DNA from: a virus
Length of the DNA: 26,388 nucleotides
Reading direction: 5' to 3' (one strand)
IMG/VR virus record: IMGVR_UViG_3300042507_007606
Coordinates: 1 to 26,388 of that record
Below, piece by piece: positions 2,634-23,844 of this stretch. Each line of letters opens with the position of its first letter. Position 1 is the first letter of the stretch. The translations under genes and the position numbers were made by a program. Below the pieces are notes generated by a model, which saw nothing but the letters and a program-made list of their open reading frames with translations, did not search any database and was not told the DNA's origin.

Positions 2634-2835
2634 AGAAGCAATTAAACGTCTGATTGTAGCTGAACTACAAGGTAACCTTGACATACTAATTGATCCTAAA
2701 CAAAAAGATAGTTTTAGTGAAGGTCGTGTCAAAACTTGGACAGACGTTGTAAGCCGAAGATTATATCATCATTTAACAGAACAACATAAACATGACTCAA
2801 TTACAGGAATTAATCCAGATCGAACTAATCAATAG
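2614..2835 (+). CDS. Small hypothetical protein related to the next protein's N-terminus
   Basis: The 73-residue product overlaps folE by 20 bases and the next gene by 44. I do not recognise a family. Its core, an amphipathic stretch RLIVAELQGNLDIL followed about 20 residues later by WTDVVSRRLYHHL, matches in spacing and residue type the first 48 residues of the MazG-like protein downstream (LIQIELINSLGLL then WTEVTSQRIANLF). This looks like a tandem duplication of a small helical module. The match also supports both start codons despite the long overlap. The function is unknown. Confidence 0.65.
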   Translation: MEISLSEEAIKRLIVAELQGNLDILIDPKQKDSFSEGRVKTWTDVVSRRLYHHLTEQHKHDSITGINPDRTNQ

Positions 2836-3451
2836 TTTAGGTCTACTCCGCTCACTCTCAGACCGAGATGAAGCAACTCGCAATCCCGAAATGGAATGGA
2901 CTGAAGTTACATCCCAACGAATTGCAAATCTTTTTAATGGACAATATGTACCATTCGTCAGCGAGGTTGAAGAGTTCAACAGCTTAATGAATAAACCAAA
3001 CAATTATGTCCCTCAAATACCGAATAATAGAGCTGAGTGGGAGTTCGTATACAACTTCGTTCTCGAAGAGCTTGAAGAGTATAAACAAGCTTGCGAAAGT
3101 GGAGACATCGTTGAAGTTTTGGACGCGCTGTGTGACATTGCTTACGTTTCCCTTGGGAACGGTACTATGCTTCATGGCCTTAAGCACAAAATTTGGCCCG
3201 CTTACATGGAAGTACAGGCGTCGAATCTTTCAAAGGCTTGTGGAACTAAAGAAGAGGCAGAAAAAACTGTACAAGTACGTTCCGAGGAACAAGGCGAACC
3301 TTGTCATTATGAACAGGTTGGTGACAAGTATGTTGTATACCGTAGCCGAGACCGTAAAGTAATGAAAAATATTAATTACTTCCGTCCTGATCTAAAACAA
3401 TTCTTCCCACTAGAATATTTCGCTAATCACCCAGCATCAGCTAAAAAATGA
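2792..3451 (+). CDS. MazG-like nucleotide pyrophosphohydrolase with extra N-terminal module
   Basis: Residues about 85-165 form an all-alpha NTP pyrophosphohydrolase domain of the MazG/PRA-PH type, which hydrolyses nucleoside triphosphates to monophosphates with Mg2+. The metal-binding pattern is EELEE (92-96), then DALCDIAYV (111-119), followed by EVQASNLSK (140-148), the typical ending of the phage form. Residues 1-50 are a separate helical module that resembles the preceding small protein. The C-terminal 50 residues with YRPDLKQFF-like text are extra. The gene ends in an ATGA overlap with the polymerase. A role in shaping the dNTP pool or removing a modified or unmodified nucleotide during replication is inferred from context. 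Confidence 0.8.
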   Translation: MTQLQELIQIELINSLGLLRSLSDRDEATRNPEMEWTEVTSQRIANLFNGQYVPFVSEVEEFNSLMNKPNNYVPQIPNNRAEWEFVYNFVLEELEEYKQACESGDIVEVLDALCDIAYVSLGNGTMLHGLKHKIWPAYMEVQASNLSKACGTKEEAEKTVQVRSEEQGEPCHYEQVGDKYVVYRSRDRKVMKNINYFRPDLKQFFPLEYFANHPASAKK

Positions 3452-5169
3452 GTTATAAATCGTGTTTTGTTCAACCCCTCAAGGATAAAAACTATAAAGT
3501 TCACTTGTGGGATGATGGTGGTTATCAAACAATGACTTGGAATTACCATGCATACGTTGAATGCGATGACCACGATGCTAACAAAAACATTAGAGGGCTA
3601 CGACAAGAATCACTCCGTAAAGTAAATACTTGGGATAGAGAAAATCCCAAGTTGCACTTTCACGATATGAGACCATACCAAAGGTTTCTAGTTGATATGT
3701 ACGGGACAAATGACGAGCCCTCCGTAACCCACCAAGAAGTATTCTTTGATATAGAGTGTGAAATGGGAGGTGCACTTACGGAAGATTATATTCGTAGTGC
3801 TCCAAAACCCATCACCTCTATAGCTTGGTGGCACAAGCAAACAGATGAGTGGAAAATTCTTATCTTAGATAAAAAAAGCGAGCTACAACACGACAAAGAA
3901 GGTAACAGAGAAATTATTCCGGTTCCGACAGAAAAAGCCTTGCTTGAGGCTTTTATAACCAATCTGCGCCAAATTAATCCGGATATACTAGTTGGTTACA
4001 ACAGTGACTACTTTGACATCCCTTACCTCTACTACCGTATTTGTAATGTATTTGATCAAGAAGTAGCAAACATGCTGTCTCCGATCGGAATCGTAATGGA
4101 CGAATCCGAATGGAACCGAGACAATTGGCTTAAAATAGCAGGTACCGAGTCTTTGGATTACATGAAGTTGCACAAAAAGTTTAGCTTTAGAGATGAACCC
4201 TCATTTAAACTAGATGCTTTAGGTAAAAAGTACGTTGGTTTAGAAAAAATCGAGTACGAGGGTAGTTTGGATCGCTTGTTTAAAGAAGACAAACAAAAGT
4301 TTATCGCTTATAACTTTCGAGACGTAGAGATCTTGAAAGCATTAGACGAGAAATTCCAATACTTACCTTTGACAAAAAACCTAGCACATAAGGGTAAAAT
4401 CAATTATTCAGATGTTTACAAGAATAGTATGATTCACGATGGTGCTATCTCGGCTTACCTATTATCACAAGGCATTATCCCGCCTGCTCGAGACCGTAAT
4501 CCGATTACTAAAAAGAATTACGCGGGTGGTTATTTGTTTTGCCCTAACGCGGGTTTGTTTAATTATATGTTTGACGAGGATTTGACATCGTTGTACCCTT
4601 CGATTATTATGTCTTTGAACATTGGTAAGGAAACGCTAGTAGGTAGGATCTTGATGCCGGATGAGAAAGTAATCGTTGAAAATAAAGAGATTTTTAATTG
4701 CAGATACGGATTAAATGATCTAAAGAAAATGGATCCGGAACTCGAGTTTACGGTTCAAAACTCTAAACGTAAGACTGCTCAAATGAAGGTTAAAGATATT
4801 ATCCATTTGGTAGAGTCCTCACATCTGGCAATTTCAGCTAATGGGGTTATGTATCGAACTGATTTTGATTCGGTGCTGAAAACGATTCTGGCAAAATGGT
4901 TTGAGGAGCGAGTCATATATAAAAATAAAATGAAGCAAGCTTACAAAGCGGGCAACAAAGCAGATGGTGAGAAGTTCCACTTGATGCAACATACCATGAA
5001 AATCTTGTTGAACTCGTTATACGGGGCAACCGCTTTGGGTTCATTCAGATATGGTAACGTAATTTTGAGCGAAAGTATTACTTTGTCGGGTCAACGAATT
5101 ATTCAAGAATCGGCTTTGTTTGCTAACACACATATGAATAAAGTAATGAAAGGAGAATTAACATTATGA
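3448..5169 (+). CDS. 43A: Family B DNA polymerase, N-terminal part (exonuclease and motifs A, B)
   Basis: This 573-residue protein is the front of a T4 gp43-like replicative DNA polymerase. Proofreading exonuclease motifs are FFDIECE (99-105, D101 and E103), GYNSDYFDIPY (183-193) and YNFRDVEIL (288-296, D292). The switch region YAGGYL is at 358-363. Polymerase motif A DLTSLYPSI carries the catalytic D378, and motif B KILLNSLYG is at 518-526. The protein ends at MNKVMKGELTL, just before motif C should appear; motif C is in the gene at 5625. The first gene in the gap starts in an ATGA overlap with this stop, and AAAGGAG lies about ten bases upstream of that ATG. The two parts must assemble to make an active polymerase. 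It is a clean split, not decay: all motifs are kept. Confidence 0.95.
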   Translation: MSYKSCFVQPLKDKNYKVHLWDDGGYQTMTWNYHAYVECDDHDANKNIRGLRQESLRKVNTWDRENPKLHFHDMRPYQRFLVDMYGTNDEPSVTHQEVFFDIECEMGGALTEDYIRSAPKPITSIAWWHKQTDEWKILILDKKSELQHDKEGNREIIPVPTEKALLEAFITNLRQINPDILVGYNSDYFDIPYLYYRICNVFDQEVANMLSPIGIVMDESEWNRDNWLKIAGTESLDYMKLHKKFSFRDEPSFKLDALGKKYVGLEKIEYEGSLDRLFKEDKQKFIAYNFRDVEILKALDEKFQYLPLTKNLAHKGKINYSDVYKNSMIHDGAISAYLLSQGIIPPARDRNPITKKNYAGGYLFCPNAGLFNYMFDEDLTSLYPSIIMSLNIGKETLVGRILMPDEKVIVENKEIFNCRYGLNDLKKMDPELEFTVQNSKRKTAQMKVKDIIHLVESSHLAISANGVMYRTDFDSVLKTILAKWFEERVIYKNKMKQAYKAGNKADGEKFHLMQHTMKILLNSLYGATALGSFRYGNVILSESITLSGQRIIQESALFANTHMNKVMKGELTL

Positions 5170-5417
5170 TTACAAAACAAGCAATCCGTAGAGGTGTATC
5201 TATCTCAATCAATGGTCTTTCAACTACAAAAGACGAGATTATTACTATGTCTGAAAAATGGACTGAAAAAGAAGAAAACCTATTTAGAAAAATGCTTAAA
5301 CAAGGCGGATCTTTTTCTATTAGAGGGGTAAAATTCCGTATCTCAGTCCCAGAACAGATCTACAACAATAAAGGAGAAGTAGAAGGGTTATTATATGAAG
5401 AAGAGGATGTTATCTAA
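5166..5417 (+). CDS. Hypothetical protein in the polymerase split (83 aa)
   Basis: The gene starts in an ATGA overlap with the polymerase N-part, preceded by the clearest Shine-Dalgarno-like sequence noticed in the window (AAAGGAG, about ten bases upstream). The product has a basic start (MITKQAIRRG), a charged middle (SEKWTEKEENLFRKML) that may be helical, and a strand-like GSFSIRGVKFRISVPE, ending in an acidic tail EEEDVI. I do not recognise it. It does not look like a GIY-YIG or HNH homing endonuclease and has no intein motifs. Its place between the polymerase halves suggests it arrived with, or caused, the split. Confidence 0.6.
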   Translation: MITKQAIRRGVSISINGLSTTKDEIITMSEKWTEKEENLFRKMLKQGGSFSIRGVKFRISVPEQIYNNKGEVEGLLYEEEDVI

Positions 5418-5628
5418 GACACTTGATCTTCATGGTACTCGCCATGAAAAAGTAGTTCTTTGTTTGGAAAATTTTTACTTTTGGCAGGGTAGAGATACAT
5501 CTTACTCTACCATTATAACAGGAAACTCTCCAGAGATGCAAGCTATAGTATCTAAATGGCTTGATAGCTACCAGTTTTCTTATTACATTGAACCCCACAA
5601 TTTGGGAAGAATAATAGTAACAGAATGA
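5395..5628 (+). CDS. Smr-domain protein in the polymerase split
   Basis: The 77-residue protein is a stand-alone Smr domain, the small nuclease-like fold found at the end of MutS2. It has LDLHGTRHEK near the start (the LDLHG motif), a central strand STIITGNSPEM where most members have a GKG loop, then a helix IVSKWLDSYQ and a final strand GRIIVTE. The GKG glycine-lysine loop is changed to GNS, so nucleic-acid cleavage may be altered. The frame also allows a start four codons later (5407). It overlaps the previous gene by 23 bases and joins the polymerase C-part by ATGA. Some Smr domains nick DNA or cleave RNA; the activity here is inferred from the fold. Confidence 0.75.
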   Translation: MKKRMLSKTLDLHGTRHEKVVLCLENFYFWQGRDTSYSTIITGNSPEMQAIVSKWLDSYQFSYYIEPHNLGRIIVTE

Positions 5629-6554
5629 TTAATCTAGAAAGTACACCTTGGTTTATTTGCAAAGAAGGCGATACTAATTATTGCGCTTATGTTGATACAG
5701 ACTCTAATTATTATAATGCTGAACCTTTGCTTAGGCATCTCTACCCTAATTTTGATGAGATGGATGAAGGGGAAAGAGACAACAAACTCGAAGAAATCGC
5801 CCTCAAATACCAAGACTTAATTACCGATTATTATTCGGAGATGTCTACAAACGTATTTAACGTTCCAATTCACCGTTTTGAAATGAAAACCGAATGTATC
5901 ATTCGTTCGGCCTACTTTAGAGCGACTCGCCGTTATGCACAATGGATTACCAAGAAAGAAGGCGTAGTTAAAAACGAGCTAGATATCAAAGGTCTGGAGT
6001 TTATGAAAGCTAATTTCCCTCCTATTTTTGGGAAGTTCTTTAATAAGATTCTAGAGATGGCTCTTAAAGGAGCTAGACAAGACGAGATCGATAAACTGCT
6101 TCTAGAGTTTAGAGAGCAAATCATGTCCAAAGATCTTAACATTACAATTTTAGGTAATCCAACCTCGGTAAAAACCCTAAACGATTATATTGAGCGTCTT
6201 CCAAAACCCGGAGAAATGTTCTCTATAATCAAACCCAAAGCACCAGCACCAGTTAAAGCAGCTATCAAATACAATGACTTGTTAACATTTTGGGGATTGG
6301 ATAAACAGCACTCTAGAATTACTCAGGGTGATAAAGTTAAATGGATTTATCTACAAAATAATCCTTATAAAATAGAGGCACTTGCATTCCTAGATTTTGA
6401 TATGCCCGAAAAGATTCGTATATTGTTAGAAGATTATGCTGACAAACACAAATCATTTGAATCTATTTTGGAAAGTAAATTAGAAGGGTTTTATCATGAT
6501 TTGGGTTGGAAGCTTAATTTGAACCCCTATCGCAATATGTTTTTTAGTTTTTAA
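5625..6554 (+). CDS. 43B: Family B DNA polymerase, C-terminal part (motif C, palm, thumb)
   Basis: The 309-residue protein continues the polymerase begun at 3448. Motif C, YVDTDS (22-27), supplies the second set of catalytic aspartates. It is followed by the palm segment KTECIIRSAYFRATRRYAQW (about 88-107) and KGLEFMKANFP (122-132), the KxxE element of family B enzymes, then the thumb. The end NPYRNMFFSF is aromatic and resembles the C-terminal clamp-binding peptide of gp43. Only about 20 residues precede motif C, which fits a break in the loop between the last helix of the N-part and motif C. The start ATG overlaps the Smr stop (ATGA). The sliding clamp follows two bases after the stop. Confidence 0.93.
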   Translation: MINLESTPWFICKEGDTNYCAYVDTDSNYYNAEPLLRHLYPNFDEMDEGERDNKLEEIALKYQDLITDYYSEMSTNVFNVPIHRFEMKTECIIRSAYFRATRRYAQWITKKEGVVKNELDIKGLEFMKANFPPIFGKFFNKILEMALKGARQDEIDKLLLEFREQIMSKDLNITILGNPTSVKTLNDYIERLPKPGEMFSIIKPKAPAPVKAAIKYNDLLTFWGLDKQHSRITQGDKVKWIYLQNNPYKIEALAFLDFDMPEKIRILLEDYADKHKSFESILESKLEGFYHDLGWKLNLNPYRNMFFSF

Positions 6555-6556
6555 AT

Positions 6557-7297
6557 ATGGTAAGTAAAACAGAATTACAATCAATCATCTCAAAATATAA
6601 TTTGAGTGGTTTAATTGATGCAGTAAAGTGGACTGTCCAAGACAATCAACTTACAATCAAATTCAATGCCCCCACTCGAGACATGATTGGGGAGATAGTT
6701 CATACTAGTTTTGATCTAGAAGATAGCGAAATAGCTATCTACAATACCTCTCAACTTGATAAACTACTAAATATTACCTTAGGGGATATTGATCTAAGAT
6801 TAGAGAAAACAGGCCGTATCTTCAGTAAACTTATAATTGAAGATGCTAGCTATAAACTCAATTACTCGCTAGCCGATCTTCTTCTAATCCAACAACCTGG
6901 TAAAGTAAATGATCCAGACAACTATATTGTTGAAAGTACTCTAGGTTCAGATGCTATTTTAGCTATGATTAAAGCAAAAAATGCTTTGCAAAGCGATAAC
7001 GTAGCATTTACCATCAGTCAAAACTTTGATGGCGATCAGGTACTAACAATGGTATTTGGTGATAACTCCAACCACACAAATAAAATTGAGTATATCGTGC
7101 CTGACACGGTTATTACGGGCGACTTCCCCAACTTCAATATCCCGTTCAACTCTGAAATGATACGCGTTATACTCGCAAATAATAAAGATGCTAACCAAGC
7201 CACAATGAGCTTAAACATCGAAGGGTTGTTAAAGCTAGTATTTGAAGGAGATAATTGGAAGAGTACTTATTATATTGTAAGAAAAGCAGACCAGTAA
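6557..7297 (+). CDS. 45: Sliding clamp (T4 gp45-like)
   Basis: This 246-residue protein follows the polymerase by two bases and has the length and layout of phage sliding clamps, ring proteins that tether the polymerase to DNA. The stretch FDLEDSEIAIYNTSQLDKLL (about 52-71) corresponds to the gp45 segment with the IAIYD strand and following helix, and the second half repeats a clamp-like strand-helix pattern ending WKSTYYIVRKADQ. Clamp sequences diverge strongly, so the call rests on this weak match plus the position between polymerase and clamp loader genes. A 7-bp inverted repeat lies inside the gene (6721-6740); it is probably without meaning. Confidence 0.8.
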   Translation: MVSKTELQSIISKYNLSGLIDAVKWTVQDNQLTIKFNAPTRDMIGEIVHTSFDLEDSEIAIYNTSQLDKLLNITLGDIDLRLEKTGRIFSKLIIEDASYKLNYSLADLLLIQQPGKVNDPDNYIVESTLGSDAILAMIKAKNALQSDNVAFTISQNFDGDQVLTMVFGDNSNHTNKIEYIVPDTVITGDFPNFNIPFNSEMIRVILANNKDANQATMSLNIEGLLKLVFEGDNWKSTYYIVRKADQ

Positions 7298-7388: not shown

Positions 7389-7820
7389 ATGACTACACTC
7401 ATCTCAGAGAGACACATCTCACCATTTGATCTGTTGTTTAAAGACTTCTTCAGATCGGAATTAAATTTCCAACCAGCCATTGAGGCTAAAATTACCCACC
7501 CAGTAGATATTTACGAGAACAAAGACGGCTTGCACTTTGAAGTTGCATGTACTGGTCTTGAAAAAAGCGATGTTGAAATCAATATCGAAGGAGATGTTCT
7601 TAAAATATCTTACAACAAAAGTGAAGACGATAAATGTTGTGATATAGACGATTGCAATTACCTACATAAAGGAATCGCACGTCGTTCTTTTAATTTAGGT
7701 TATAAAATAGCTCCCAAATTTAAACTTGTAGCGGCTGAAGCAGAAATGAAGAATGGTCTTCTAAAAATTTCTGTTCCATTTGCCGAAGAAGCTAAACCAA
7801 AAGCACTTAAAATTAAGTAA
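7389..7820 (+). CDS. Small heat shock protein (Hsp20 / alpha-crystallin)
   Basis: The 143-residue protein holds an alpha-crystallin domain (about 35-130), an ATP-independent holdase that binds unfolding proteins. Visible marks are the opening HPVDIYENKDGLHFEVACTG, the strand VEINIEGDVLKISYNKSED, the ARRSFNL element before the late strands, and EMKNGLLKISVPF, the family's A-x-x-x-NGxL motif. The end KALKIK resembles the C-terminal I-x-I anchor. An unusual three-cysteine insert, CCDIDDC, lies in the loop between strands. The gene has its own 91-base leader without a Shine-Dalgarno sequence, so it may begin a transcript that carries the chaperonins. Confidence 0.92.
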   Translation: MTTLISERHISPFDLLFKDFFRSELNFQPAIEAKITHPVDIYENKDGLHFEVACTGLEKSDVEINIEGDVLKISYNKSEDDKCCDIDDCNYLHKGIARRSFNLGYKIAPKFKLVAAEAEMKNGLLKISVPFAEEAKPKALKIK

Positions 7821-7832
7821 TATATTTTGAAT

Positions 7833-7855
7833 AAAACGTGCCCTAGCACAATTTT
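7833..7855 (+). terminator. Weak hairpin with T tract after hsp20
   Basis: GTGC-CCTA-GCAC (7838-7849) can form a short stem-loop, extended by AAAA (7833-7836) pairing with TTTT (7852-7855) across a small internal loop. It lies 18 bases after the hsp20 stop and just before a possible promoter, so a terminator is plausible, but the GC stem is only four pairs. Confidence 0.3.
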
Positions 7856-7856
7856 G

Positions 7857-7889
7857 TTCGTATATTCACGTTATAATTAAATAATTGTT
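7857..7889 (+). promoter_or_regulatory. Possible promoter before the chaperonin operon
   Basis: TTCGTATATT (7857-7866) followed by TTATAATTAAATAATTG lies directly upstream of the ATG at 7890. The same TTCGTAYATT occurs in the folE leader, and the CGTAYAT core recurs at 13610. The identical decamer also occurs once inside the polymerase gene (about 6415), so the match alone is not decisive. Confidence 0.3.
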
Positions 7890-8170
7890 ATGAGAAAAAA
7901 AGATTCAACAACAACCCGCTACATTAAAGACCCCGTCATTTCTCCATACTATATTCAGTTGGACGATTATTGTTTTGGGGTTCACAAAACTATTGTTGCT
8001 GAAGAAAGTGGAAAGGAGTATCATCAAACTTTAGGATTCTATAAAAGTCTTAGCAATGCCCTCTCGGCAATTGCTAAAGATAAAACTATGAGTCAAAGTT
8101 ATGATACTCTTAAAGACTTTATGAACGAGTATAATGACATTACTAACCGAATTAATAACACAGTTAAGCT

Positions 8171-8174
<4 letters not shown>
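7890..8174 (+). CDS. Hypothetical phage protein (94 aa) before groES
   Basis: The 94-residue protein has a strand-rich core, PYYIQLDDYCFGVHKTIV, then GKEYHQTLGFYKSLSNALSAI and a helical tail. The layout (a bound-residue strand, then GFYKSLxxAL) is reminiscent of small phage proteins of the DUF5405 type, but I cannot confirm it. It overlaps the groES start by ATGA, so it is probably co-translated with the chaperonin genes. A link to chaperonin function is only positional. Confidence 0.6.
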
Positions 8175-10105
<1,931 letters not shown>

Positions 10106-10106
<1 letters not shown>

Positions 10107-13826: not shown

Positions 13827-15260
13827 ATGAAAGAAGGTTATATTTCAAGAGAACAACGAAAAAAAATCCTATTATTAACAGACGACATTAGACTACCCTC
13901 AGGTGTAGGTAACATAGGTAAAGAGATAATTTTAGGTACAGCACATCACTACAATTGGGTAAATTTAGGAGCAGCTATCAATCACCCAGATGCTGGTAAA
14001 CGCTTTGATTTAAGTGCTGATACCAACCAAAATGCAGGTATAGATGATGCTAGTGTTTTTCTATATCCTTACAATGGTTATGGAGATGCAAATATCCTAA
14101 GACAAATCATCCAGATTGAAAAACCAGATGCTATAATGATGATTACTGATCCTCGTTATTTTGTTTGGTTGTTCCAAATTGAAAACGAAATCAGAAAAAC
14201 CATTCCATTAATTTACCTTAACATTTGGGATGATTACCCAGCACCTTATTACAATAAAGCATTCTATGAATCATGCGATGCATTGTTAGGTATTTCAAAA
14301 CAAACAGTTAATATTAATAAACTAGTTTTGAATGAGAAAATAGGTAAAAAAGTAATTGGATATTTACCTCACGGAATGAATACTGAAGTATTCTATCCTA
14401 TAAAAGACAAAGCAACTAATAAAGATTTTATAAACTTTAAAAAACAGTTGTTTGGTGAAAAAGAATATGAATTTGTAGTATTTTATAACTCAAGAAATAT
14501 TCGCCGTAAACAAGTACCCGATACTATTTTAGCATTTGATCAGTTTGTAAAACAACTACCTAAAGAAAAAGCAGATAAATGTGTAATGCTTCTTCACACT
14601 GAACAAATAAGTGAACATGGTACTGATCTACCAGCAGTTATAGATACACTTTGTTCTCCAGACACTAATATTGTGTTCACACCAGGTAAATTAGATGTAA
14701 AAGTATTAAATTATCTTTACAATCTAGCAGATGTTCAGATTCTACTTACCTCAAATGAAGGTTGGGGTCTATCACTTACAGAAGCATTGCTAACAGGTAC
14801 TCCTATTATTGCTAACGTAACAGGTGGAATGCAAGATCAAATGCGTTTTGAATTTGAAGATGGTACTTGGATTGATTTCGATGCTGATTTCCCTTCAAAC
14901 CACAGAGGTACTTATAAGAAACACGGTAAATGGGCATTCCCAGTATACCCAAGTAATATCTCAATCGTAGGTTCTCCTCCCACTCCCTACATTTTTGATG
15001 ATCGTTGCCGTTGGGAAGATGCAACTGAGCGTTTGATGGAAGTATATAACTTACCTAAAGAAGAAAGAGAAGGAAGAGGTATGGCTGGACATGAATGGGC
15101 TACAAGTGATGAAGCCGGATTCACTACAAATCACCAGGCAAACCGTTTTATCAATTTTACAGATGAATTATTTAATACTTGGACTCCAAGAGAAAAATAT
15201 GAATTGATAAATGCTAGCGAATATAAAAAACCAGTCTTAAACCATAAATTAGTATATTAA
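13827..15260 (+). CDS. GT4-type glycosyltransferase (477 aa)
   Basis: The protein has a two-domain GT-B plan. The N-terminal half has KILLLTDDIRLPSGVGNIG (about 13-31), a sugar-acceptor domain opening, and the C-terminal half carries SNEGWGLSLTEALLTGTPII (309-328), the nucleotide-sugar motif of family 4 enzymes, followed by ANVTGGMQDQM. NSRNIRRKQVPDTILAF (221-237) begins the donor domain. It lacks membrane segments. Base composition is like the replication genes, unlike the cluster after 17.6 kb. It joins the next glycosyltransferase by TAATG. Donor and acceptor cannot be read. Confidence 0.85.
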   Translation: MKEGYISREQRKKILLLTDDIRLPSGVGNIGKEIILGTAHHYNWVNLGAAINHPDAGKRFDLSADTNQNAGIDDASVFLYPYNGYGDANILRQIIQIEKPDAIMMITDPRYFVWLFQIENEIRKTIPLIYLNIWDDYPAPYYNKAFYESCDALLGISKQTVNINKLVLNEKIGKKVIGYLPHGMNTEVFYPIKDKATNKDFINFKKQLFGEKEYEFVVFYNSRNIRRKQVPDTILAFDQFVKQLPKEKADKCVMLLHTEQISEHGTDLPAVIDTLCSPDTNIVFTPGKLDVKVLNYLYNLADVQILLTSNEGWGLSLTEALLTGTPIIANVTGGMQDQMRFEFEDGTWIDFDADFPSNHRGTYKKHGKWAFPVYPSNISIVGSPPTPYIFDDRCRWEDATERLMEVYNLPKEEREGRGMAGHEWATSDEAGFTTNHQANRFINFTDELFNTWTPREKYELINASEYKKPVLNHKLVY

Positions 15261-16537
15261 TGAAACCAGTTTTTGTAATAAGTTGCCCAATCGACACTTA
15301 CAGTGGATATGGAGCACGTTCTAGAGATATTGTTAAAGCAATTATTAAGACTGACAAGTATGATGTAAAAATTCTTCCACAACGTTGGGGTGCTACACCT
15401 TGGAACTTTATTGAAGATCATAAAGACGAGTGGGGATTTTTACAATCACATATCTTAACTGAACCTAAATTAACTCAACAACCCGAAATTTGGGCCCAAA
15501 TCACCATTCCAAATGAATTCCAACCAGTTGGAAAATATAATATTGGTATTACAGCAGGTATTGAAACCACAGCTGTAAAAGGTGAATGGATTGAAGGTTG
15601 TAATCGAATGAATCTTGTAATTACATCCTCTGAATTTGCTAAAAAGACATTCGAGTCTATGAGCTATGAGGTTAAAAATCAACAAGGTCAGTTACAAGGT
15701 CACTTAAAACTTACAACACCTATTGAAGTTATTTTTGAAGGTGCTAATACTGACATTTATAAAGTACTTAATACTCCTTGTTCCTTGGATCTTCAAATCA
15801 AAGAATCATTTGCTTATTTGTTTGTAGGCCATTGGACACAAGGTGATTTTGGAGAAGATAGAAAAAATGTTTCTTTATTGATTAAAGCATTCTATGAAAC
15901 ATTTAAAAACAAAAAGACTAAACCAGCCTTAATTTTAAAAACAAGTGGTTCAGGTTCTTCTTATATGGATCGTAATGCTATTTTAGATAAAATTGATAAA
16001 ATTAAAAAATCAGTTAATTCTAAAGATCTTCCTAGTATTTATCTTCTTCATGGTGAATTTACAGATGAAGAAATAAATGAGATTTATAACCATTCTAAAG
16101 TAAAAGCTATGGTTAGCTTAACTAAAGGTGAAGGATTTGGACGTCCCCTTCTTGAATTTAGTTTAGTTAAAAAACCAATTATAGCTACAGGATGGTCAGC
16201 TCATACTGAGTTTTTAGATCCTAATTTTACAGTAGCTTTAAAAGGTGAACTTAAACCAGTAGGAACATCAGCCATAAATGATTGGGTTATAGCTGGATCA
16301 CAATGGTTTAATGTTGATTATGGTCAAGTAGGATATTATTTTAAAGATGTATTTGAAAACTATAAAAATTATACTGATGGAGCTAAACGTCAAGCCTTTA
16401 AAAGTAAAAACGAATTTAGTTGGGATAAAATGTTTGAAAAAGTAGACCAAACACTTACTCAACACATCCCCGAATTTCCTAAAGAAATTCAACTTCAACT
16501 TCCTAAATTACAACTTCCTAAATTACAAAAAGTCTAA
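15260..16537 (+). CDS. GT4-type glycosyltransferase (425 aa)
   Basis: The start SCPIDTYSGYGARSRDIVKA (8-27) has the glycine-rich acceptor-domain turn seen in family 4 enzymes. FVGHWTQGDFGEDRKN (188-203) begins the donor domain, and TKGEGFGRPLLEFSLVKKPI (288-307) is the nucleotide-sugar motif, followed by ATGWSAHTEFL. The C-terminus holds a five-residue tandem repeat (QLPKL twice) coded by a 15-bp duplication. No membrane segment is seen. It is probably the partner of the preceding enzyme in building one glycan; the sugars are unknown. Confidence 0.85.
   Translation: MKPVFVISCPIDTYSGYGARSRDIVKAIIKTDKYDVKILPQRWGATPWNFIEDHKDEWGFLQSHILTEPKLTQQPEIWAQITIPNEFQPVGKYNIGITAGIETTAVKGEWIEGCNRMNLVITSSEFAKKTFESMSYEVKNQQGQLQGHLKLTTPIEVIFEGANTDIYKVLNTPCSLDLQIKESFAYLFVGHWTQGDFGEDRKNVSLLIKAFYETFKNKKTKPALILKTSGSGSSYMDRNAILDKIDKIKKSVNSKDLPSIYLLHGEFTDEEINEIYNHSKVKAMVSLTKGEGFGRPLLEFSLVKKPIIATGWSAHTEFLDPNFTVALKGELKPVGTSAINDWVIAGSQWFNVDYGQVGYYFKDVFENYKNYTDGAKRQAFKSKNEFSWDKMFEKVDQTLTQHIPEFPKEIQLQLPKLQLPKLQKV
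16496..16525 (+). repeat. 15-bp tandem repeat at the end of a glycosyltransferase gene
   Basis: CAACTTCCTAAATTA occurs twice in direct succession (16496-16510 and 16511-16525), coding QLPKLQLPKL just before the stop. A shorter CAACTT copy precedes it. It keeps frame and probably arose by slippage. Confidence 0.85.
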
Positions 16538-16983
16538 TGGATAATTTAACTACATGCGAACGTTGTGGCTCAGATGCTTGCTACGTTCAAGAAGTCAACT
16601 CAGAAGTAAAATTATACCACTGCTACGGGTGTGGGTTCATAGCTAACACAGTTATGACCCGCGGCTCGGAGTTTTTGGAACAACAACTTGCAGTACTACC
16701 TGAATTATATAAAGAATTAATGGGTGAAGACGAGAATGGTCTTATCTGGTTACCTTCAGTAGTTAATGTTCCTGATAAAGGAATGGTATTTGCCGACGGA
16801 TCTAATGGTCAGCAATGGGCTTGGGCTGCTGTAAAAGCAACTTTAATGTCTGAAGAAGAAAAAACCAAGTTTAAGGCTAAAGGTAAAGAGTATGATTACA
16901 AAATGGATATGTCGTCTTTACAACATTTTTCTGAACGTGATTACATGGAGGCCCTTTCATACATTGGTGTTTTACCCGAATAA
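16537..16983 (+). CDS. Zinc-ribbon protein (148 aa)
   Basis: The N-terminus holds two cysteine pairs, CERC (about 7-10) and CYGC (about 29-32), the pattern of a zinc ribbon. The rest, including ELMGEDENGLIWLPSVVNVP and QQWAWAAVKATLMSEEE, resembles no family I can name; its tryptophan-rich helix and the following FSERDYMEALSYIGVLPE look globular. It starts by TAATG after a glycosyltransferase and is followed seven bases later by another. It has no obvious link to sugar chemistry and may be a phage core gene, possibly nucleic-acid binding, caught between glycan genes. Confidence 0.65.
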   Translation: MDNLTTCERCGSDACYVQEVNSEVKLYHCYGCGFIANTVMTRGSEFLEQQLAVLPELYKELMGEDENGLIWLPSVVNVPDKGMVFADGSNGQQWAWAAVKATLMSEEEKTKFKAKGKEYDYKMDMSSLQHFSERDYMEALSYIGVLPE

Positions 16984-16990
16984 AACAGAT

Positions 16991-17614
16991 ATGAAAATTA
17001 GTTACGCAGTTACGGTTTGCAATGAATTGGTGGAGATTCAACGTCTCCTCCCATTCTTACTTAAACATAAGTCCCCAAATGATGAGGTTGTAGTTCTATA
17101 TGATTCTAAAAATGGTTCTTCATCTGTAGAACAGTACCTAAGAGCATCTTCGGTTGCTGATTCTAAATTTAGATGGTACTCATACGAGTTTAAAGATGAT
17201 TTTTCGGATATGAAAAATCATTTAACTCATTTATGCTCTGGAGATTACATCTTCCAGGTTGATGCTGATGAAATGCCTAACGAAAACCTAATGAGATATT
17301 TAGGTCCAATCCTCCTTAATAACCCAGTAGATGTAATTCGAGTACCTCGAGTTAACACAGTCTCTGGTTTAACCCCAGAACACGTTCAAAAGTGGGGGTG
17401 GGTTGTAGATGGTAAAGGTCGAGTTAACTGGCCTGATCTACAGTGGAGAATCTACAGAAAATCACCGGATATTAAGTGGAAAAATAAAGTACACGAGATT
17501 CTCGATGGTTACAATACTCATTCAGTATTACCGTTAGAAGAAGAATTTGCACTCCAACACCACAAAGATATTAAACGTCAAGAAAAACAAAATGAATTGT
17601 ATAATACGTTATGA
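16991..17614 (+). CDS. GT2-type glycosyltransferase (207 aa)
   Basis: I choose the ATG at 16991 (MKISYAVTVCNE); the open frame extends 33 codons further upstream, but into the previous gene with text unlike a GT start. The opening AVTVCNELVEIQRLLPFL is the family 2 nucleotide-binding strand and helix, and FQVDADEMPNENL (88-100) carries the DADE metal-binding motif. RIYRKSPDIKWKNKVHEIL fits the later part of the WaaE-like branch, where a histidine-glutamate pair ends the catalytic domain. It is short and soluble. It overlaps the next gene by ATGA. Confidence 0.85.
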   Translation: MKISYAVTVCNELVEIQRLLPFLLKHKSPNDEVVVLYDSKNGSSSVEQYLRASSVADSKFRWYSYEFKDDFSDMKNHLTHLCSGDYIFQVDADEMPNENLMRYLGPILLNNPVDVIRVPRVNTVSGLTPEHVQKWGWVVDGKGRVNWPDLQWRIYRKSPDIKWKNKVHEILDGYNTHSVLPLEEEFALQHHKDIKRQEKQNELYNTL

Positions 17615-18504
17615 AAAAGTTTAAAAAAATATTCATAGCCGGTGCTAATGGTATGTTAGGAACTACTTTAAAAAGCTTAACAGATACATCTGAAATGCTC
17701 TTAACAGACAAAGAACTTTCAGATGGAATTAAATTTTGTGATATTAGAGACTTAAAACATACTGCAGAAGTAATAAATAATTTTCAACCGGATATTATTT
17801 TAAATTTTGCAGCTTTAGTTGATTTAGAATATTGTGAAAAAGAAAAAGATGATTGCTATTTAACAAACACTATTGCTGCTATTCATTTATTTAATTTAGC
17901 TAAAGATCAAAATATTCCTTATGTTTTTATTAGCACAGCAGGTATATTTGGAAATGATAAAGAATTTTATACTGAAGAGGATCAACCATATCCTTTAAGT
18001 GCTTATGGGAAAAGTAAGTACTATACTGAACAACTTCTTCAAAATCAAGGATATGAAAAATATTGGATTTTTAGAGCTGGTTGGATGATGGGTGGTGGTC
18101 CTGAAAAAGATAAAAAATTTGTTAACAAAATAATGAAACAAATTAATTCAGGAGCTAAAGAATTATTTGTTGTAGATGATAAATTAGGAGTACCTACATA
18201 CACTAAAGATTTTGCAAATTCAATTTTGAGACATGTAGAAGAAGATTTACCTTATGGATTATATAATATGGTAAGTCAAGGTGAAGCTAGTAGATATGAA
18301 ACTGCTATTGCTATTAATGAATATCTTAATTTAGGATTAATAGTGAATAAAGTAAATAGTGATTATTATAAAGAAGAATATTTTGCACCTCGCCCATATT
18401 CAGAAAAACTTATAAACAAAAGTTTAAATAATTTAGAAAGAAATTATATGAGAAATTGGAAAGTATGTCTTCATGAATATTTAAATGAATTTTTTAAAAA
18501 ATGA
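17611..18504 (+). CDS. rmlD: RmlD-like dTDP-4-dehydrorhamnose reductase / SDR
   Basis: The 297-residue short-chain dehydrogenase has the NAD(P) loop GANGMLG (11-17), NFAALVDLEYCE (about 65-76) after the fourth strand, and the catalytic Y132 and K136 in YGKSK. VPTYTKDFA (about 194-202) matches the RmlD segment that precedes the C-terminal part. RmlD makes dTDP-L-rhamnose from the 4-keto sugar; the window has no RmlA, RmlB or RmlC, so the precursor would come from the host or from genes outside. Another nucleotide-sugar reductase of the same family is possible. From here the DNA becomes clearly richer in A and T. Confidence 0.75.
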   Translation: MKKFKKIFIAGANGMLGTTLKSLTDTSEMLLTDKELSDGIKFCDIRDLKHTAEVINNFQPDIILNFAALVDLEYCEKEKDDCYLTNTIAAIHLFNLAKDQNIPYVFISTAGIFGNDKEFYTEEDQPYPLSAYGKSKYYTEQLLQNQGYEKYWIFRAGWMMGGGPEKDKKFVNKIMKQINSGAKELFVVDDKLGVPTYTKDFANSILRHVEEDLPYGLYNMVSQGEASRYETAIAINEYLNLGLIVNKVNSDYYKEEYFAPRPYSEKLINKSLNNLERNYMRNWKVCLHEYLNEFFKK

Positions 18505-19355
18505 TCCCTGTAGCTCGACTTTGGCATAAAAAAGGAAAGTTGGAGTATTATACTATGCTCCAACTATTAAAATATTTACCTGATATTGAATTTGAATACC
18601 ATGTAATACTAGATCAGCCTAATTATAAAGATGAATGGACTGAAAAAATAGATAATCTCCCAGTTAAATGTACTTGGTATTCTAAAGAGGATATGCATAA
18701 CTATTTAAAAGATAGTGGTTATGGTAATGATGAATTAATTTCTAAAATACCTAAGTTTATTCATTTTTACCACATTTTAATTAATCATTATTTAAGACGT
18801 GTACATAGTTTTGATTATGTTCTAACTATTGAATATGATGTTATCTTTAATAGTAATGATTTATCTCAACTAGAAGAATTTCTTACTAATAAAATCCCAT
18901 TTGGAATAATAGAACCAGCTAATCTTGGATGTGATAAAGCTTTAGCTCAACAACTTTCAAATTTATTTGATCAAAACATAATTAAATATCCTAATGTAGG
19001 AATTAATGCTGGGTTTAAGGGACTTAATTTAAAAGTATTTGATGAATTTTTAAACCCATCAACATTTAATCTTTTATTGAATATTTTTAACTTTTCAGGT
19101 ATTTACAATGAAGATGGAAGTGAAAAAACAGGATGGGAAAGAACAACAATTGATACTCAAGAACAATCTTTTCATTCTTTAATGAATGCTCTAAGCCCAG
19201 AATACCAGTTATTAGATCCTAATCAGTACTATGTTTTTCCTTATTGGGTTGATATGGACTATTTAATGAAGTCCAAAGTTATTCATTTTATTGGGCATGA
19301 AAAACCACAATCAATGATGGATATAATTGATTTAAAACTTAAAGAATGGGAATAA
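18501..19355 (+). CDS. GT8-like glycosyltransferase candidate (284 aa)
   Basis: The protein shows the scattered marks of a GT-A enzyme: YVLTIEYDVIF (106-116) at the place of the DxD metal site, GINAGFKGLNL in the middle, TQEQSFHSLMNAL, and HFIGHEKP (262-269) near the end, like the HxxGxxKP of family 8. The DxD is written EYD, so metal binding may differ. It joins both neighbours closely (ATGA before, 12 bases after). Donor and acceptor are unknown. The family call rests on motif order, not on overall likeness. Confidence 0.6.
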   Translation: MIPVARLWHKKGKLEYYTMLQLLKYLPDIEFEYHVILDQPNYKDEWTEKIDNLPVKCTWYSKEDMHNYLKDSGYGNDELISKIPKFIHFYHILINHYLRRVHSFDYVLTIEYDVIFNSNDLSQLEEFLTNKIPFGIIEPANLGCDKALAQQLSNLFDQNIIKYPNVGINAGFKGLNLKVFDEFLNPSTFNLLLNIFNFSGIYNEDGSEKTGWERTTIDTQEQSFHSLMNALSPEYQLLDPNQYYVFPYWVDMDYLMKSKVIHFIGHEKPQSMMDIIDLKLKEWE

Positions 19356-19367
19356 TTTATACAAATT

Positions 19368-20018
19368 ATGGCTAACGGAATATATAAAATTACAGAAGAT
19401 TTTGAAAAAGCATTAGGTGATTATACAGGAGCACCCTATGTTGTAACACTTGATAACATGAGTAATGCTTTATTTTTGGCATTATACTATGAAAAAAATA
19501 TTAAAAAAAGTCTCACAACTAATAAAATAACTATCCCTTGTAGAACCTACCCTTCAGTCCCATGTGAAATTATTCATGCTGGATTAAAAGTAGATTTTGA
19601 ACCTGTTAAAGGAAGAACTATTAAAGGGATGTACCAATTAAAAGGAAGTAATGTTTGGGATTCGGCGTTAAGTTTTACTACAAACATGTATAAATCTGGT
19701 CAACATATTTGCATTTCATTTACCGGACCCTATAAACACTTTAAACTATCTAAGGGTGGGGCTATTTTAACAGATAATCACGATGCTTACTTATGGTTTA
19801 AAAGAGCCAGATATTCAGGTAGAAGAGAATGTTCTTATCATGATGATTATTTTGATATGTTAGGGTGGAATTTTTATATGATGCCTGAATTAGCAGCTCG
19901 TGGTTTACTTCTTATGAATCAGTTTTACCATGGTGAAACCCCTAAACACAATGAAGACCTAGAAATGCCCTACCCAGATTTATCTAAATTTCCTATATAT
20001 ACTCAATCTAATGGATAA
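19368..20018 (+). CDS. Short DegT/DnrJ/EryC1-like aminotransferase fold protein (216 aa)
   Basis: The product keeps the order of a sugar aminotransferase large domain: GAPYVVTLDNMSNALFLAL (21-39; the GTxAL turn is replaced by DNMSNAL), ITIPCRTYPSVPCEIIHAGL, VWDSAL with D98 at the PLP-ring aspartate position, and SFTGPYKHFKLSKGGAIL (117-134), where K123 may be the PLP lysine, one residue later than usual. A family member has about 370 residues; this one ends soon after the NFYMMPELAARGLLLMNQF helix and lacks the C-terminal domain. It is not frameshifted: the next gene starts 8 bases before the stop. It may be a reduced enzyme, a non-catalytic relative or a different chemistry. Confidence 0.65.
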   Translation: MANGIYKITEDFEKALGDYTGAPYVVTLDNMSNALFLALYYEKNIKKSLTTNKITIPCRTYPSVPCEIIHAGLKVDFEPVKGRTIKGMYQLKGSNVWDSALSFTTNMYKSGQHICISFTGPYKHFKLSKGGAILTDNHDAYLWFKRARYSGRRECSYHDDYFDMLGWNFYMMPELAARGLLLMNQFYHGETPKHNEDLEMPYPDLSKFPIYTQSNG

Positions 20019-20718
20019 AAAAATAGGAATAATGCAACCCTATTTCTTCCCATATATAGGGTACTTTCAATTAATAAACTCAGTTGATGAATTTATTATA
20101 TATGATAATATTCAATATACTAAAAAGGGATGGATTAACAGAAATCGTATTTTAGTCAATAATCAAGATCAATTATTTACTTTACCCATAAAAAAAGACT
20201 CAGACTATTTAAATGTGGTAGAACGAGAATTATCTGATTCATGGGAAAAAGATAAAAATAAAATATTAAATACTATAAAATCTTCATATAGTAAAGCTCC
20301 TTACTTTCAGGAAACATTTGAGTTAATTTCAAAATGTTTAAATAATTCTGAAAATAATTTATTTAAATTTATATATGATAGTATTATTTTAATAAATGAT
20401 TATTTAGAAATTAAGACATCTATTGTAATTTCTTCTACAATAGACATAAATCACACTTTGAAATCCCAAGATAAAGTTTTATCTTTATGTAAAGCATCAA
20501 ATGCATCTACATATATAAATGCTATAGGTGGACAAACTTTATACAACAAAGATATATTTAATACTCATAATATTAAATTACAATTTATTAAATCAGATAT
20601 GATACAATATTCTCAATTTAATAATAAATTTATACCTTGGCTATCAATTATAGACGTTATGATGTTTAATTCTGTAGAAGACATTAAAAAATATTTAAAT
20701 AGTTATACTTTAATATGA
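20011..20718 (+). CDS. WbqC family protein
   Basis: The 235-residue protein opens with GIMQPYFFPYIGYFQLI (6-22), the hallmark of the WbqC family, and continues IIYDNIQYTKKGWINRNRI. The family occurs in O-antigen and capsule loci and is thought to help modify an amino sugar, often beside DegT-type aminotransferases as here. It overlaps the preceding gene by 8 bases. The DNA is extremely AT-rich; one 60-base stretch inside (20341-20400) has only five G or C. Chemistry is not established from the sequence. Confidence 0.9.
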   Translation: MDKKIGIMQPYFFPYIGYFQLINSVDEFIIYDNIQYTKKGWINRNRILVNNQDQLFTLPIKKDSDYLNVVERELSDSWEKDKNKILNTIKSSYSKAPYFQETFELISKCLNNSENNLFKFIYDSIILINDYLEIKTSIVISSTIDINHTLKSQDKVLSLCKASNASTYINAIGGQTLYNKDIFNTHNIKLQFIKSDMIQYSQFNNKFIPWLSIIDVMMFNSVEDIKKYLNSYTLI

Positions 20719-21677
20719 AATGGAAAAAATTAGGACATATATTTGATCCAACAAATTGGGAAGATGGAATTGATAGACCTTGGATGAAAACACATTCACA
20801 ATGTCCTAGCACCCAAATATTTGAGGATTATGTACGTGTATACTTTTCATGTCGCCCCCACCCAGATGTTAATGGGCAATATGTTAGTTATACTACATAT
20901 TTAGATTTAGATAAAAAAAATTTATCTAAAGTGCTTAAGGTTGCAGACAAACCCTTGATGCCATTAGGTAAGTTAGGTACCTTTGATGAGTTTGCAATTT
21001 ATCCTACATCTACAATTAGGATTAATAATCAAACCCATCTTTATTATGCTGGTTGGTCTAGATGTCAATCTACACCATACACAGTTTCAATAGGACATGC
21101 TATTAGTAATGACGGGATTACTTTTACCCGTACTGCAGATGGTCCTATTCTAACTAACTCACAACATGAACCTTATGAATTGAGTGGACCTAAAATAAGA
21201 AAATTTAAAGATACCTTTTTTATGTATTACTTAGCAGGTGAAGGGTGGGTTATGGATGACAACAAACCAGTATCAAAATATAAAATACGTTTAGCCTTAT
21301 CAAAAGACGGTATTAACTGGGACAAACTAAATACAGACTTAATCCAGAGTATTTTACCTGAAGACGAATGTCAAGCAGGCCCAGATGTCTTTTTTAAAAA
21401 TGATAAGTATCATATGTTTTTTAGCTATAGATATGCTACTAACTTTAAAAATAAACAACGAGGTTATAAGATTGGTTATGCTTCATCAATTGATGGTATA
21501 CATTGGGAAAGAGATGATAAAAAAGCTGGTATTGAATTAGCGGAAACTGGTTGGGATTCTGAAATGCATCACTATCCTCATATCTTTGAGGTAGATAATA
21601 AAATGTATATGATATACAATGGTAATGAGTTTGGTAAATATGGAATAGGATTAGCAGAATTAATAGAAGAATTATGA
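20715..21677 (+). CDS. Beta-propeller glycosidase-like protein (320 aa)
   Basis: The protein repeats a beta-blade pattern: HSQCPSTQIFEDYVRVYFSC, TFDEFAIYPTSTIRIN, YELSGPKIRKFKDTFFMYYL, ECQAGPDVFFKNDKYHMFFS, and MHHYPHIFEVDNKMYMIYNG. Each blade carries the polar turn with an aromatic strand, as in five-bladed propellers of the GH43/GH32 clan. Such proteins occur in glycan loci next to WbqC. A catalytic aspartate-glutamate pair cannot be assigned with certainty. No signal peptide is seen, so it would act inside the cell, possibly on a nucleotide-linked or lipid-free glycan. Confidence 0.75.
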   Translation: MKWKKLGHIFDPTNWEDGIDRPWMKTHSQCPSTQIFEDYVRVYFSCRPHPDVNGQYVSYTTYLDLDKKNLSKVLKVADKPLMPLGKLGTFDEFAIYPTSTIRINNQTHLYYAGWSRCQSTPYTVSIGHAISNDGITFTRTADGPILTNSQHEPYELSGPKIRKFKDTFFMYYLAGEGWVMDDNKPVSKYKIRLALSKDGINWDKLNTDLIQSILPEDECQAGPDVFFKNDKYHMFFSYRYATNFKNKQRGYKIGYASSIDGIHWERDDKKAGIELAETGWDSEMHHYPHIFEVDNKMYMIYNGNEFGKYGIGLAELIEEL

Positions 21678-22240
21678 ATATAATAGGAAATAAAGTTATA
21701 TTAAGAGCTATTGAGCTTGATGATTTAGACCAATTACACATTTGGGCTAATGATCCTGCTACACAAGATATTATTGGAAATATTCATTTCCCCAGTTCTA
21801 AAGAATATCAAACTCAGTGGTTTAATAAATTGCAAACTGATACCTTAAACCAACGACTAGCTATAACTACAAAAGAGGACGGATTGATTGGATTATCTAG
21901 TATTATGAATATAGATTGGCGAAATCGTCATGCTTGGCATGGTATTATATTAGGAGATAAAGACATTCGTGGAAAGGGATATGGTGTAGACACAGTTATG
22001 GCAACTATGAGGTATGCTTTTGATGAAATGAACTTAGAACGCCTAGATGGATCAATTATAGAATATAATACAATATCTTACTCATTATACTGTAATAAGT
22101 TAGGATGGAAAGAAGAAGGAAGGAAAAAAAATTACTACTTTAGACGAGGTAAATATTATGACCAAATAGTAGTTGGAATAAATAGAGATAACTACTATGA
22201 GTTAATAAAACAAAATAATTATTGGAATGAGAAATTATAA
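21674..22240 (+). CDS. GNAT family N-acetyltransferase (RimJ/RimL type)
   Basis: The 188-residue protein begins VILRAIELDDLDQLHIW (8-24), standard for RimL-type enzymes, and has the acetyl-CoA loop DIRGKGYGVD (about 96-105), then NTISYSLYCNKLGWKEEGR, where N and the YxxxGF-like part close the site. It transfers acetyl from acetyl-CoA to an amine. Beside a DegT-like protein and WbqC it would acetylate an amino sugar, as in dideoxy amino sugar routes. It joins its neighbours by ATGA and a 14-base overlap. Confidence 0.88.
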   Translation: MNIIGNKVILRAIELDDLDQLHIWANDPATQDIIGNIHFPSSKEYQTQWFNKLQTDTLNQRLAITTKEDGLIGLSSIMNIDWRNRHAWHGIILGDKDIRGKGYGVDTVMATMRYAFDEMNLERLDGSIIEYNTISYSLYCNKLGWKEEGRKKNYYFRRGKYYDQIVVGINRDNYYELIKQNNYWNEKL

Positions 22241-22970
22241 TAAAGAACTTAAAGATACTAAAGATCACAAATATGCTTATAACTTTGATTTAGATATAAT
22301 GCATCCCTATATGTTTGAGTCTTTTAAAAATCATTTTGTTGAAGGGAATTGTCTTGAACTAGGAAGTTCTAAGGGTGACTTTACAAAATATCTTATTTCT
22401 TATTTTAATAATATTACATGTGTTGAAGCTTCTCAAGAAGCAGTTGAAATTTCTAAACAAAAATTAGATATTGATGCTAATAATAAAATTGTATATTTTA
22501 ATTCATTATTTGAAACTATAAAACTTCCTAAAAAATATGATAATATTATATTAACTCATGTTTTAGAACATATAGATAATCCTGTACAACTATTAACTAA
22601 AATTAAAACAGAATGGTTGTCTGAAAATGGGAAGTTATTTCTAGTATGCCCTAATGCAAATGCTCCCTCAAGACAAATTGCAGTTAAAATGGGACTAATC
22701 CCCAATAATACAGCAATTACTCCTTCAGAAGTAGAGCATGGGCATCGAATTACGTACACTTTAGATACACTAGAAAGAGATGCTAAAGCTGGAGGGTTAA
22801 ATATTATTTACAGATCAGGAATATTCTTTAAAGCGTTAGCTAATTTTCAATGGGATCAATTATTAAACACTAATATTATTAGTAAAGAATATTTAGATGG
22901 ATGTTATTCTTTAGGTCAACAATATCCTGACTTGTGTTCTAGTATAATGTTAATTTGTAAAAAAGATTAA
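22227..22970 (+). CDS. SAM-dependent class I methyltransferase
   Basis: The 247-residue protein has motif I LELGSSKGDF (43-52), an acidic strand end CVEAS for the ribose contact, and LTHVLEHIDNPVQLL, the motif often seen in sugar-modifying methyltransferases. FLVCPNANAPSR is motif III. It is soluble. In this cluster it may methylate a sugar of the glycan, but a free carbohydrate or lipid acceptor cannot be told apart here. It starts 14 bases before the GNAT stop. Confidence 0.85.
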   Translation: MRNYNKELKDTKDHKYAYNFDLDIMHPYMFESFKNHFVEGNCLELGSSKGDFTKYLISYFNNITCVEASQEAVEISKQKLDIDANNKIVYFNSLFETIKLPKKYDNIILTHVLEHIDNPVQLLTKIKTEWLSENGKLFLVCPNANAPSRQIAVKMGLIPNNTAITPSEVEHGHRITYTLDTLERDAKAGGLNIIYRSGIFFKALANFQWDQLLNTNIISKEYLDGCYSLGQQYPDLCSSIMLICKKD

Positions 22971-22971
22971 T

Positions 22972-23844
22972 ATGCCTCGGATTATAATAGCAGCTCCTTC
23001 TTATAATGAGTCAATAGGAGGAAGTATAACTTTACATAGATTATGTGATATACTTATTACATTAGGGTATGATGCATATCTATATCCAACAATAAAGCTA
23101 AACGGAACATTAAATAGTTTTACTATTAACTCCTCTTACAAGTATAATATTGCAACTAAAATTGACCCTATTGAAGATATAGCAATATATCCTGAAATAG
23201 AGCCCGGAAATCCATTTCAATGTAAAAGAATTATACGTTATATACTAAATAAATTTCATCTACCTCAATATGATAATACTATAGCTACCTGGGGAGAATC
23301 TGACTATTATTTATACTACCACGAGCTATTTTATGATAATTTAAAACCTAAGAATATACTTACAATTCTTGATTCTAAATTAAATTTATTTAAAGATCAT
23401 AATACAGATCGTAACGTAGAATCTTGCCACACATATAGAAAACGTTTACATGAAAAAGATACTATAATACCTATACACCCTCAAGATTCTATTGAAATAG
23501 AATTTAATACACCTGATTATAAATTAGTAGAAATTTTTAATAAATGTAAAAGATTCTATAGCTATGATACAGAAACTTATTTAAGTACTTTAGCAGCATT
23601 ATGTGGTTGTGAAAGTGTAATAGTACCTAGTACTGATATATCAATAGAAGAATTAAAAAAAAGACGTGAAACATTAGGAATAACTTATGGAGTAGCATAT
23701 GGAATCAATGATATAGAAAATGCTGAAAAGACCAAACACTTGTTAAGAGAACATTTCGAAAAACAAGAAATATCTCAATTTACAGAAACTAAAAATATAT
23801 TTACTAAAATTTACAAACATTTTAGTATAACAGATATAGTATGA
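22972..23844 (+). CDS. GT-B-like glycosyltransferase candidate (290 aa)
   Basis: The start RIIIAAPSYNESIGGSITLH (3-22) with GGSITLHRLCDILITLGYDA resembles the acceptor domain of GT-B enzymes, which open with a glycine-rich loop before a long helix. Later, FYSYDTETYLSTLAALCGCE followed by VIVPSTDIS resembles the donor-side helix where the site is kept by a conserved acidic residue. The full GT4 E-x7-E motif is not visible, and the protein is short. Family placement is therefore weak; the cluster context supports a glycosyltransferase. Confidence 0.55.
   Translation: MPRIIIAAPSYNESIGGSITLHRLCDILITLGYDAYLYPTIKLNGTLNSFTINSSYKYNIATKIDPIEDIAIYPEIEPGNPFQCKRIIRYILNKFHLPQYDNTIATWGESDYYLYYHELFYDNLKPKNILTILDSKLNLFKDHNTDRNVESCHTYRKRLHEKDTIIPIHPQDSIEIEFNTPDYKLVEIFNKCKRFYSYDTETYLSTLAALCGCESVIVPSTDISIEELKKRRETLGITYGVAYGINDIENAEKTKHLLREHFEKQEISQFTETKNIFTKIYKHFSITDIV

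Follow-up and report, generated by a model that had tools for sequence, protein, structure and literature searches.

A phage family B DNA polymerase encoded by two genes, with variable gene cargo at the break

Two genes encode the polymerase

The first 26,388 nucleotides of the IMG/VR virus record IMGVR_UViG_3300042507_007606, hereafter the window, encode a family B DNA polymerase (PolB) in two open reading frames (ORFs) on the plus strand, with two small ORFs, u and Smr, in between. An earlier reading of this DNA from its letters alone (the sequence-only reading) had proposed a split replicative polymerase of the T4 gp43 type, and the split proved real: the halves occupy positions 3448–5169 and 5625–6554, and all 151 relatives with both halves readable agree. 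The features of the locus are listed below; counts of gaps between the halves refer to these 151 loci.

3448–5169, plus strand: PolB N-terminal half (N-half), 573 amino acids (PF03104, 9.9e-17; PF00136, 2.4e-19; phrog_262, 1.2e-108)
4579–4599, plus strand: motif A, DLTSLYP, with the catalytic Asp378 of the N-half; invariant in the polymerase alignment
4999–5025, plus strand: motif B, KILLNSLYG (polymerase and junction alignments)
5166–5417, plus strand: u, 83 amino acids, fold unassigned, with an acidic tail modelled at low confidence; present in 136 of 151 gaps
5395–5628, plus strand: mini-Smr, 77 amino acids, Smr fold, DLHG kept and second motif GNS; in 39 of 151 gaps
5625–6554, plus strand: PolB C-terminal half (C-half), 309 amino acids (phrog_262, 1.8e-40; RB69 gp43 residues 608–903)
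5625–5672, plus strand: head of the C-half, MINLESTPWFICKEGD, about 15 residues not found in intact polymerases and conserved in the split clade
5688–5705, plus strand: motif C, YVDTDS (junction alignment)

The N-half comprises the N-terminal domain, the 3'-5' exonuclease, the first part of the palm with motif A (DLTSLYPSI as a wider string) and the fingers with motif B. The C-half contains the second part of the palm with motif C, the thumb and a C-terminal FFSF tail, which by analogy with T4 and RB69 is a putative clamp-binding tail. The exonuclease domain and motifs A, B and C of a T4-type gp43 are all present and the motifs are intact, with A and C on different chains, as had been predicted; in place of the single gp43 polypeptide, the window and each of the 151 relatives have two ORFs.

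The gap between the halves was expected to be 460 bases long and to hold two small genes. The genes, encoding the 83-residue u and the 77-residue Smr-fold protein, are there; the measured length is 455 bp. The expected short overlaps were also found: the N-half and u share an ATGA at 5166–5169, u and Smr overlap by 23 nt at 5395–5417, and Smr and the C-half share an ATGA at 5625–5628.

The break lies shortly before motif C and the C-half has a new head

The C-half starts 21 residues upstream of YVDTDS, close to the 20 or so estimated from the sequence alone. The sequence-only reading had suggested looking for residues lost at the break by alignment with intact relatives. On phrog_262, an intact-polymerase profile of 856 positions, the N-half covers positions 41–567 and the C-half 565–842, and since the two halves together span the break, no core residues are missing. 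Mapped on RB69 gp43, the N-half ends near residue 612 and the C-half begins near residue 608, which places the break shortly 5' of motif C, whose aspartates we take to be residues 621 and 623.

At the junction, intact polymerases run from LNKxLKT through a loop of a few residues to xxDYVIAxDTDS. In the split clade, the junction alignment shows an N-half ending in MNKVMKGELTL and a C-half starting with MINLESTPWFICKEGDTNYCAYVDTDS. Comparison of the two groups at this junction thus indicates that the C-half gained about 15 residues. The head is strongly conserved among 87 non-redundant members (E5 in 97%, T7 in 98%, P8 in 100%, W9 in 97%, I11 in 97% and D16 in 99%), with the pattern LExTPWFIC, and probably serves for docking, making up for the interruption of the chain. 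The division also affects annotation: the Pfam DNA_pol_B match of the C-half falls under the family cut-off, and the two halves are assigned to different polymerase families.

The split is universal in a large sampled clade

Three scans of IMG/VR with C-halves recovered 168 loci with a C-half, 151 of them with both halves readable; the other 17 are truncated at contig ends or incomplete. The polymerase is split at the identical point in 151 of 151 loci and fused in none. Maximum-likelihood analysis places the split loci in a single group with a support of 100; in this sample they are monophyletic. Their nearest relatives are the 484-kb phage LR756508 and a trio of intact polymerases, from Microcystis phage Mel-JY01 and the metagenome contigs L086 and L087; these three are uninterrupted polymerases outside the split clade. 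The closest named relative is the PolB of Mel-JY01 (PP395634), which is 34–36% identical and likewise has a clamp-like gene behind it, but is a single gene of 848 amino acids.

The gap is the main cargo site of the operon

The length of the gap ranges from −4 to 4214 bp across loci. It holds u at 136 of the 151 loci, Smr at 39 and neither at 11; at 8 loci there is no gene in between, and the halves abut or overlap. Gene-sized space, defined as 180 bp or more and counted over non-redundant loci of the same operon, was present at 84 of 87 breaks (97%), compared with 4 of 80 borders between mazG and the N-half (5%) and 14 of 85 borders between the C-half and the clamp gene (16%). These outer neighbours in the window are:

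2792–3451, plus strand: MazG/PRA-PH-type gene, overlapping the start of the N-half (PF01503, 7.4e-8)
6557–7297, plus strand: sliding-clamp-like gene, directly 3' of the C-half (PF02768, a weak match at 0.0083)

Besides u and Smr, the gap residents recognized by Pfam include DUF6165, a mannose-6-phosphate isomerase-type cupin, a cytidylyltransferase, DUF2452, a KdsA-like enzyme of the DAHP-synthase family, transaldolase, a HAD phosphatase, phosphomannomutase, a dTDP-sugar epimerase, a DegT aminotransferase, a formyltransferase, an acetyltransferase, methyltransferases, a glycosyltransferase and weak sulfotransferase matches. Surface-sugar genes are frequent among them and are linked by ATGA overlaps. 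GIY-YIG, HNH, LAGLIDADG and intein domains were not found by Pfam among the scanned representatives of split-clade gap genes, Pfam and the junction alignment revealed no intein domain in either polymerase half, and an Rfam scan found no intron or other RNA.

Two near-identical pairs of loci show the gap in states one step apart. In L055 the halves overlap by ATGA, whereas L056 has one DUF2452 gene in between, with ATGA at both ends; L018 has an intact Smr gene that is mostly deleted in L019, whose polymerase is nearly identical. The start of the C-half overlaps the preceding stop by ATGA in 99 of 151 loci, and a simple scan detected a Shine–Dalgarno-like core before it in only 12. A local promoter for the C-half was considered and rejected, promoter-like sites numbering 16 against 15.6 in shuffled sequences.

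Both halves are under strong purifying selection (ratio of nonsynonymous to synonymous substitution rates, dN/dS, 0.068 for the C-half and 0.077 for the N-half), and u (0.23) and Smr (0.24) are under purifying selection as well. Pairwise identities of the two halves correlate at r=0.91, and those of the halves with the clamp at 0.91–0.93. The corresponding values are only 0.30–0.35 for Smr and the halves, and 0.68 for u and Smr. Given this difference, the halves have been inherited together, and the small genes, with a history separate from theirs, behave as partly linked cargo.

Some observations concern the surroundings of the break. A clamp-like homologue follows the polymerase also in L084, L085, L086 and L087, and this synteny extends to intact polymerases. 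Extra genes of about 2.3–4 kb lie between the C-half and the clamp gene in L008 (4438–6778), L024, L026, L027, L032, L033 and L044; the interval in L008 includes a 556-residue protein resembling NodU/CmcH carbamoyltransferase. In L005 (5289–5636) and L007 the polymerase gap encodes a small membrane protein resembling one at 9875–10213 of L136, from the 642-kb phage LR756502, near the mini-Smr gene of that phage. In the window, the clamp gene is followed in the replication region by genes for Hsp20, GroES and GroEL (7389–10106), and positions 13827–26324 hold a long series of genes for glycosyltransferases and sugar modification, which match the polymerase-gap cargo in functional class. A SET-domain protein is encoded at 818–1207 (PF00856, 8e-15), flanked by radical SAM (QueE-like) and phosphoribosyltransferase genes.

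Comparison with other split polymerases and the origin of the break

Split phage polymerases are already known, so the kind of arrangement is not new. In the Aeromonas T4-like phages 25 and 44RR, gp43 is split, the break being occupied by a seg endonuclease or by an untranslated spacer, and the 43A and 43B proteins of phage 25 co-purify and are active (PMC2988022). As in the window, a T4-type family B polymerase is encoded there by two adjacent genes. The clade described here differs in that neither an endonuclease nor an untranslated spacer was found in the break, in the clade-wide fixation of the split and in its cargo genes; the position differs too, the Aeromonas-type break lying upstream of motif B and that of the window downstream, as judged by the borders of phrog_2062 and phrog_1918, the PHROG half-families resembling the Aeromonas halves.

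Fractured genes with split inteins plus an endonuclease were reportedly described by Dassa et al. in 2009. Among phage polymerases, Pseudomonas phage MIJ3 has a PolB gene fractured in this way, with a split intein and an HNH endonuclease gene (PMC6892783). A distant relative, L123 (5001–9084), has a split intein exactly at motif C (YGDTDS/C at one end, LIHN/S at the other) and, between the halves, a 322-residue gene that reads as endonuclease-like and has only weak zinc-finger-type Pfam matches. Both resemble the window in having a PolB break near motif C that is occupied by a gene; in the window clade, by contrast, no intein halves or endonuclease were found, the break is about 20 residues earlier and the halves are not spliced. 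Split family B replicases also occur in archaea, in Methanobacteriales and in Nanoarchaeum, the Nanoarchaeum halves carrying parts of an intein (PMC4104785). A further case is the huge phage LR756508 (L085, LR756508.1 257500–269500), whose PolB is split in the same loop as in the window clade. Its gap of 3 kb contains four genes, and inteins are present in motif B (327 amino acids) and, on the C-half, in motif C (312 amino acids); a search for kin of this C-half found none.

Such states, on record in L123 and LR756508, make the loss of an intein or endonuclease a real possibility: the break may be what remains of a homing element or intein that once invaded motif C and then disappeared, with two stable halves as the result. 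The gene between the intein fragments of L123, the inteins of LR756508, the arrangement in MIJ3 and the attribution of the Methanobacteriales split to erratic intein excision (PMC4104785) all point in this direction, and a common origin of the breaks in LR756508 and in the window clade is not rejected by the approximately unbiased (AU) test (p=0.18). Against it, the split clade shows no detected trace of either element, its break is some 20 residues upstream of the intein site, and the best tree joins LR756508 with the intact Mel-JY01 (98/94), slightly favouring separate breaks. We regard this origin as plausible without considering it probable. It concerns how the break arose and is compatible with a present function as a two-subunit polymerase and cargo site.

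The two small proteins of the gap

The Smr assignment made from the sequence alone stands. The four best PDB fold matches of the AlphaFold2 model for the 77-residue protein (pLDDT 84.7) are all Smr domains; 16 of 23 members of the mini-Smr family match PF01713 at E≤0.1 (best 1e-5), the copy in the window being without a match and that of L036 reaching, with 25.7 bits, exactly the curated cut-off. The DxH motif is present as DLHG (D11–G14), invariant in 23 relatives, and the GxG motif of the Smr family is replaced by GNS in most members, with G43 and S45 invariant in the 23 sequences. Fold and DLHG are shared with the Smr domains of MutS2, SmrB and B3BP, from which mini-Smr differs in being a free-standing minimal protein of 66–84 amino acids with GNS for GxG and no MutS or helical partner domain. 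In Escherichia coli, SmrB uses its DLH residues to cleave mRNA where ribosomes have collided, and Bacillus subtilis MutS2 employs its Smr domain without cutting (PMC10897456). For u, neither sequence nor fold gave a match in Pfam, PHROGs, phage records or PDB; a YetF match at E 0.0095 was judged to be due to chance.

These proteins could be accessory subunits or regulators of the polymerase, for instance by bridging the halves or cutting their mRNA. Consistent with such a role are the purifying selection on both proteins, the activity of SmrB and the distribution of u, which occupies 136 of the 151 gaps and was seen at no other place in the five large contigs scanned. Yet u is missing in several lineages and changes its presence five times on the tree, Smr does so seven times, and neither history closely follows that of the halves, which makes such a role rather unlikely.

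The sequence-only reading went further and let the Smr gene stand in for a homing endonuclease. The fold, the invariant DLHG and the adjacency to the C-half at 31 of the 39 loci might fit a mobile nicking element responsible for the break or for its maintenance. The gene is missing from 112 of 151 gaps and the split persists where the gap is empty; moreover, the second motif is GNS, the gene is deleted in L019, and homologues occur far from any polymerase, about 30 kb away in the L188 genome and, as the only one in named phage records, in the 642-kb phage LR756502. This part of the earlier proposal is therefore abandoned as very improbable. Even less credible is that the halves are non-functional relics in genomes copied by another polymerase, given the strong purifying selection, the intact motifs and the failure to find PolA, PolIII alpha or a second PolB-like match of comparable strength in five contigs of 113–173 kb (one has an additional weak exonuclease-region match), which we consider T4-like because three of the five carry the gp23 capsid gene. 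Finally, the records are metagenome contigs, and the earlier reading had named a faulty assembly join as fatal to its proposal; since 151 of 151 relatives, from many independent assemblies, share the break and none is fused, chance or an error of sequencing or assembly is effectively excluded.

A proposed two-subunit polymerase with a cargo site

We propose, with good confidence, that the polymerase of this clade is constitutively made of two subunits and that the break in its gene is used as a site for gene cargo. An ancestral gp43 gene would have been interrupted within the short loop that joins the helix following motif B to the strand bearing motif C. The break would then have been fixed and the two chains would associate non-covalently, helped by terminal extensions evolved after the break, about 5 residues at the N-half tail and about 15 at the C-half head. 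Either half would accept new neighbours provided that overlapping stops and starts keep the genes linked, presumably through translational coupling, and this would have let the break become a cargo site. Cargo, often genes of surface-sugar metabolism, would enter, leave and be exchanged at the site, for which recombination between the conserved flanking polymerase sequences would be the simplest route, with u as a near-resident of the site and mini-Smr as an optional one.

Several points weigh against this proposal. The assembly and activity of the two chains are deduced from genes and alignments, and recombination as the exchange route is likewise our inference. That Smr and u correlate less well with the halves could be due in part to their being short, fast-evolving proteins rather than to exchange. 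The five large contigs are perhaps incomplete, so another polymerase may still exist. At L009, L044, L074, L153, L176 and L182, the N-half tail is longer or different, with about 20–40 extra residues unrelated to GELTL.

A bolder version of the two-subunit proposal, which we put forward only as speculation, would make the interior of the polymerase gene a dedicated gene-exchange dock, with the highly conserved half-genes as recombination handles, cargo swapped within one translationally coupled operon, and u as a third subunit.

Four features are new: the break lies after motif B and before motif C with no intein or endonuclease found, it has become fixed throughout a large clade, the C-half bears a conserved head, and the operon has its main cargo site at the break; we found no publication in the open-access literature that describes such a break or cargo site. 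The usual explanation for split polymerases in phages is a homing endonuclease or intein that still occupies the break, and the window clade has neither as far as found. Its halves call for caution in annotation, as they fall in different polymerase families, the C-half under the Pfam cut-off. The pairs L055/L056 and L018/L019 offer natural before-and-after comparisons for the study of gene capture. A large and widely sampled clade thus retains a replicase divided at a catalytically sensitive point, and offers a two-chain enzyme open to testing, with an interface that is both new and defined.

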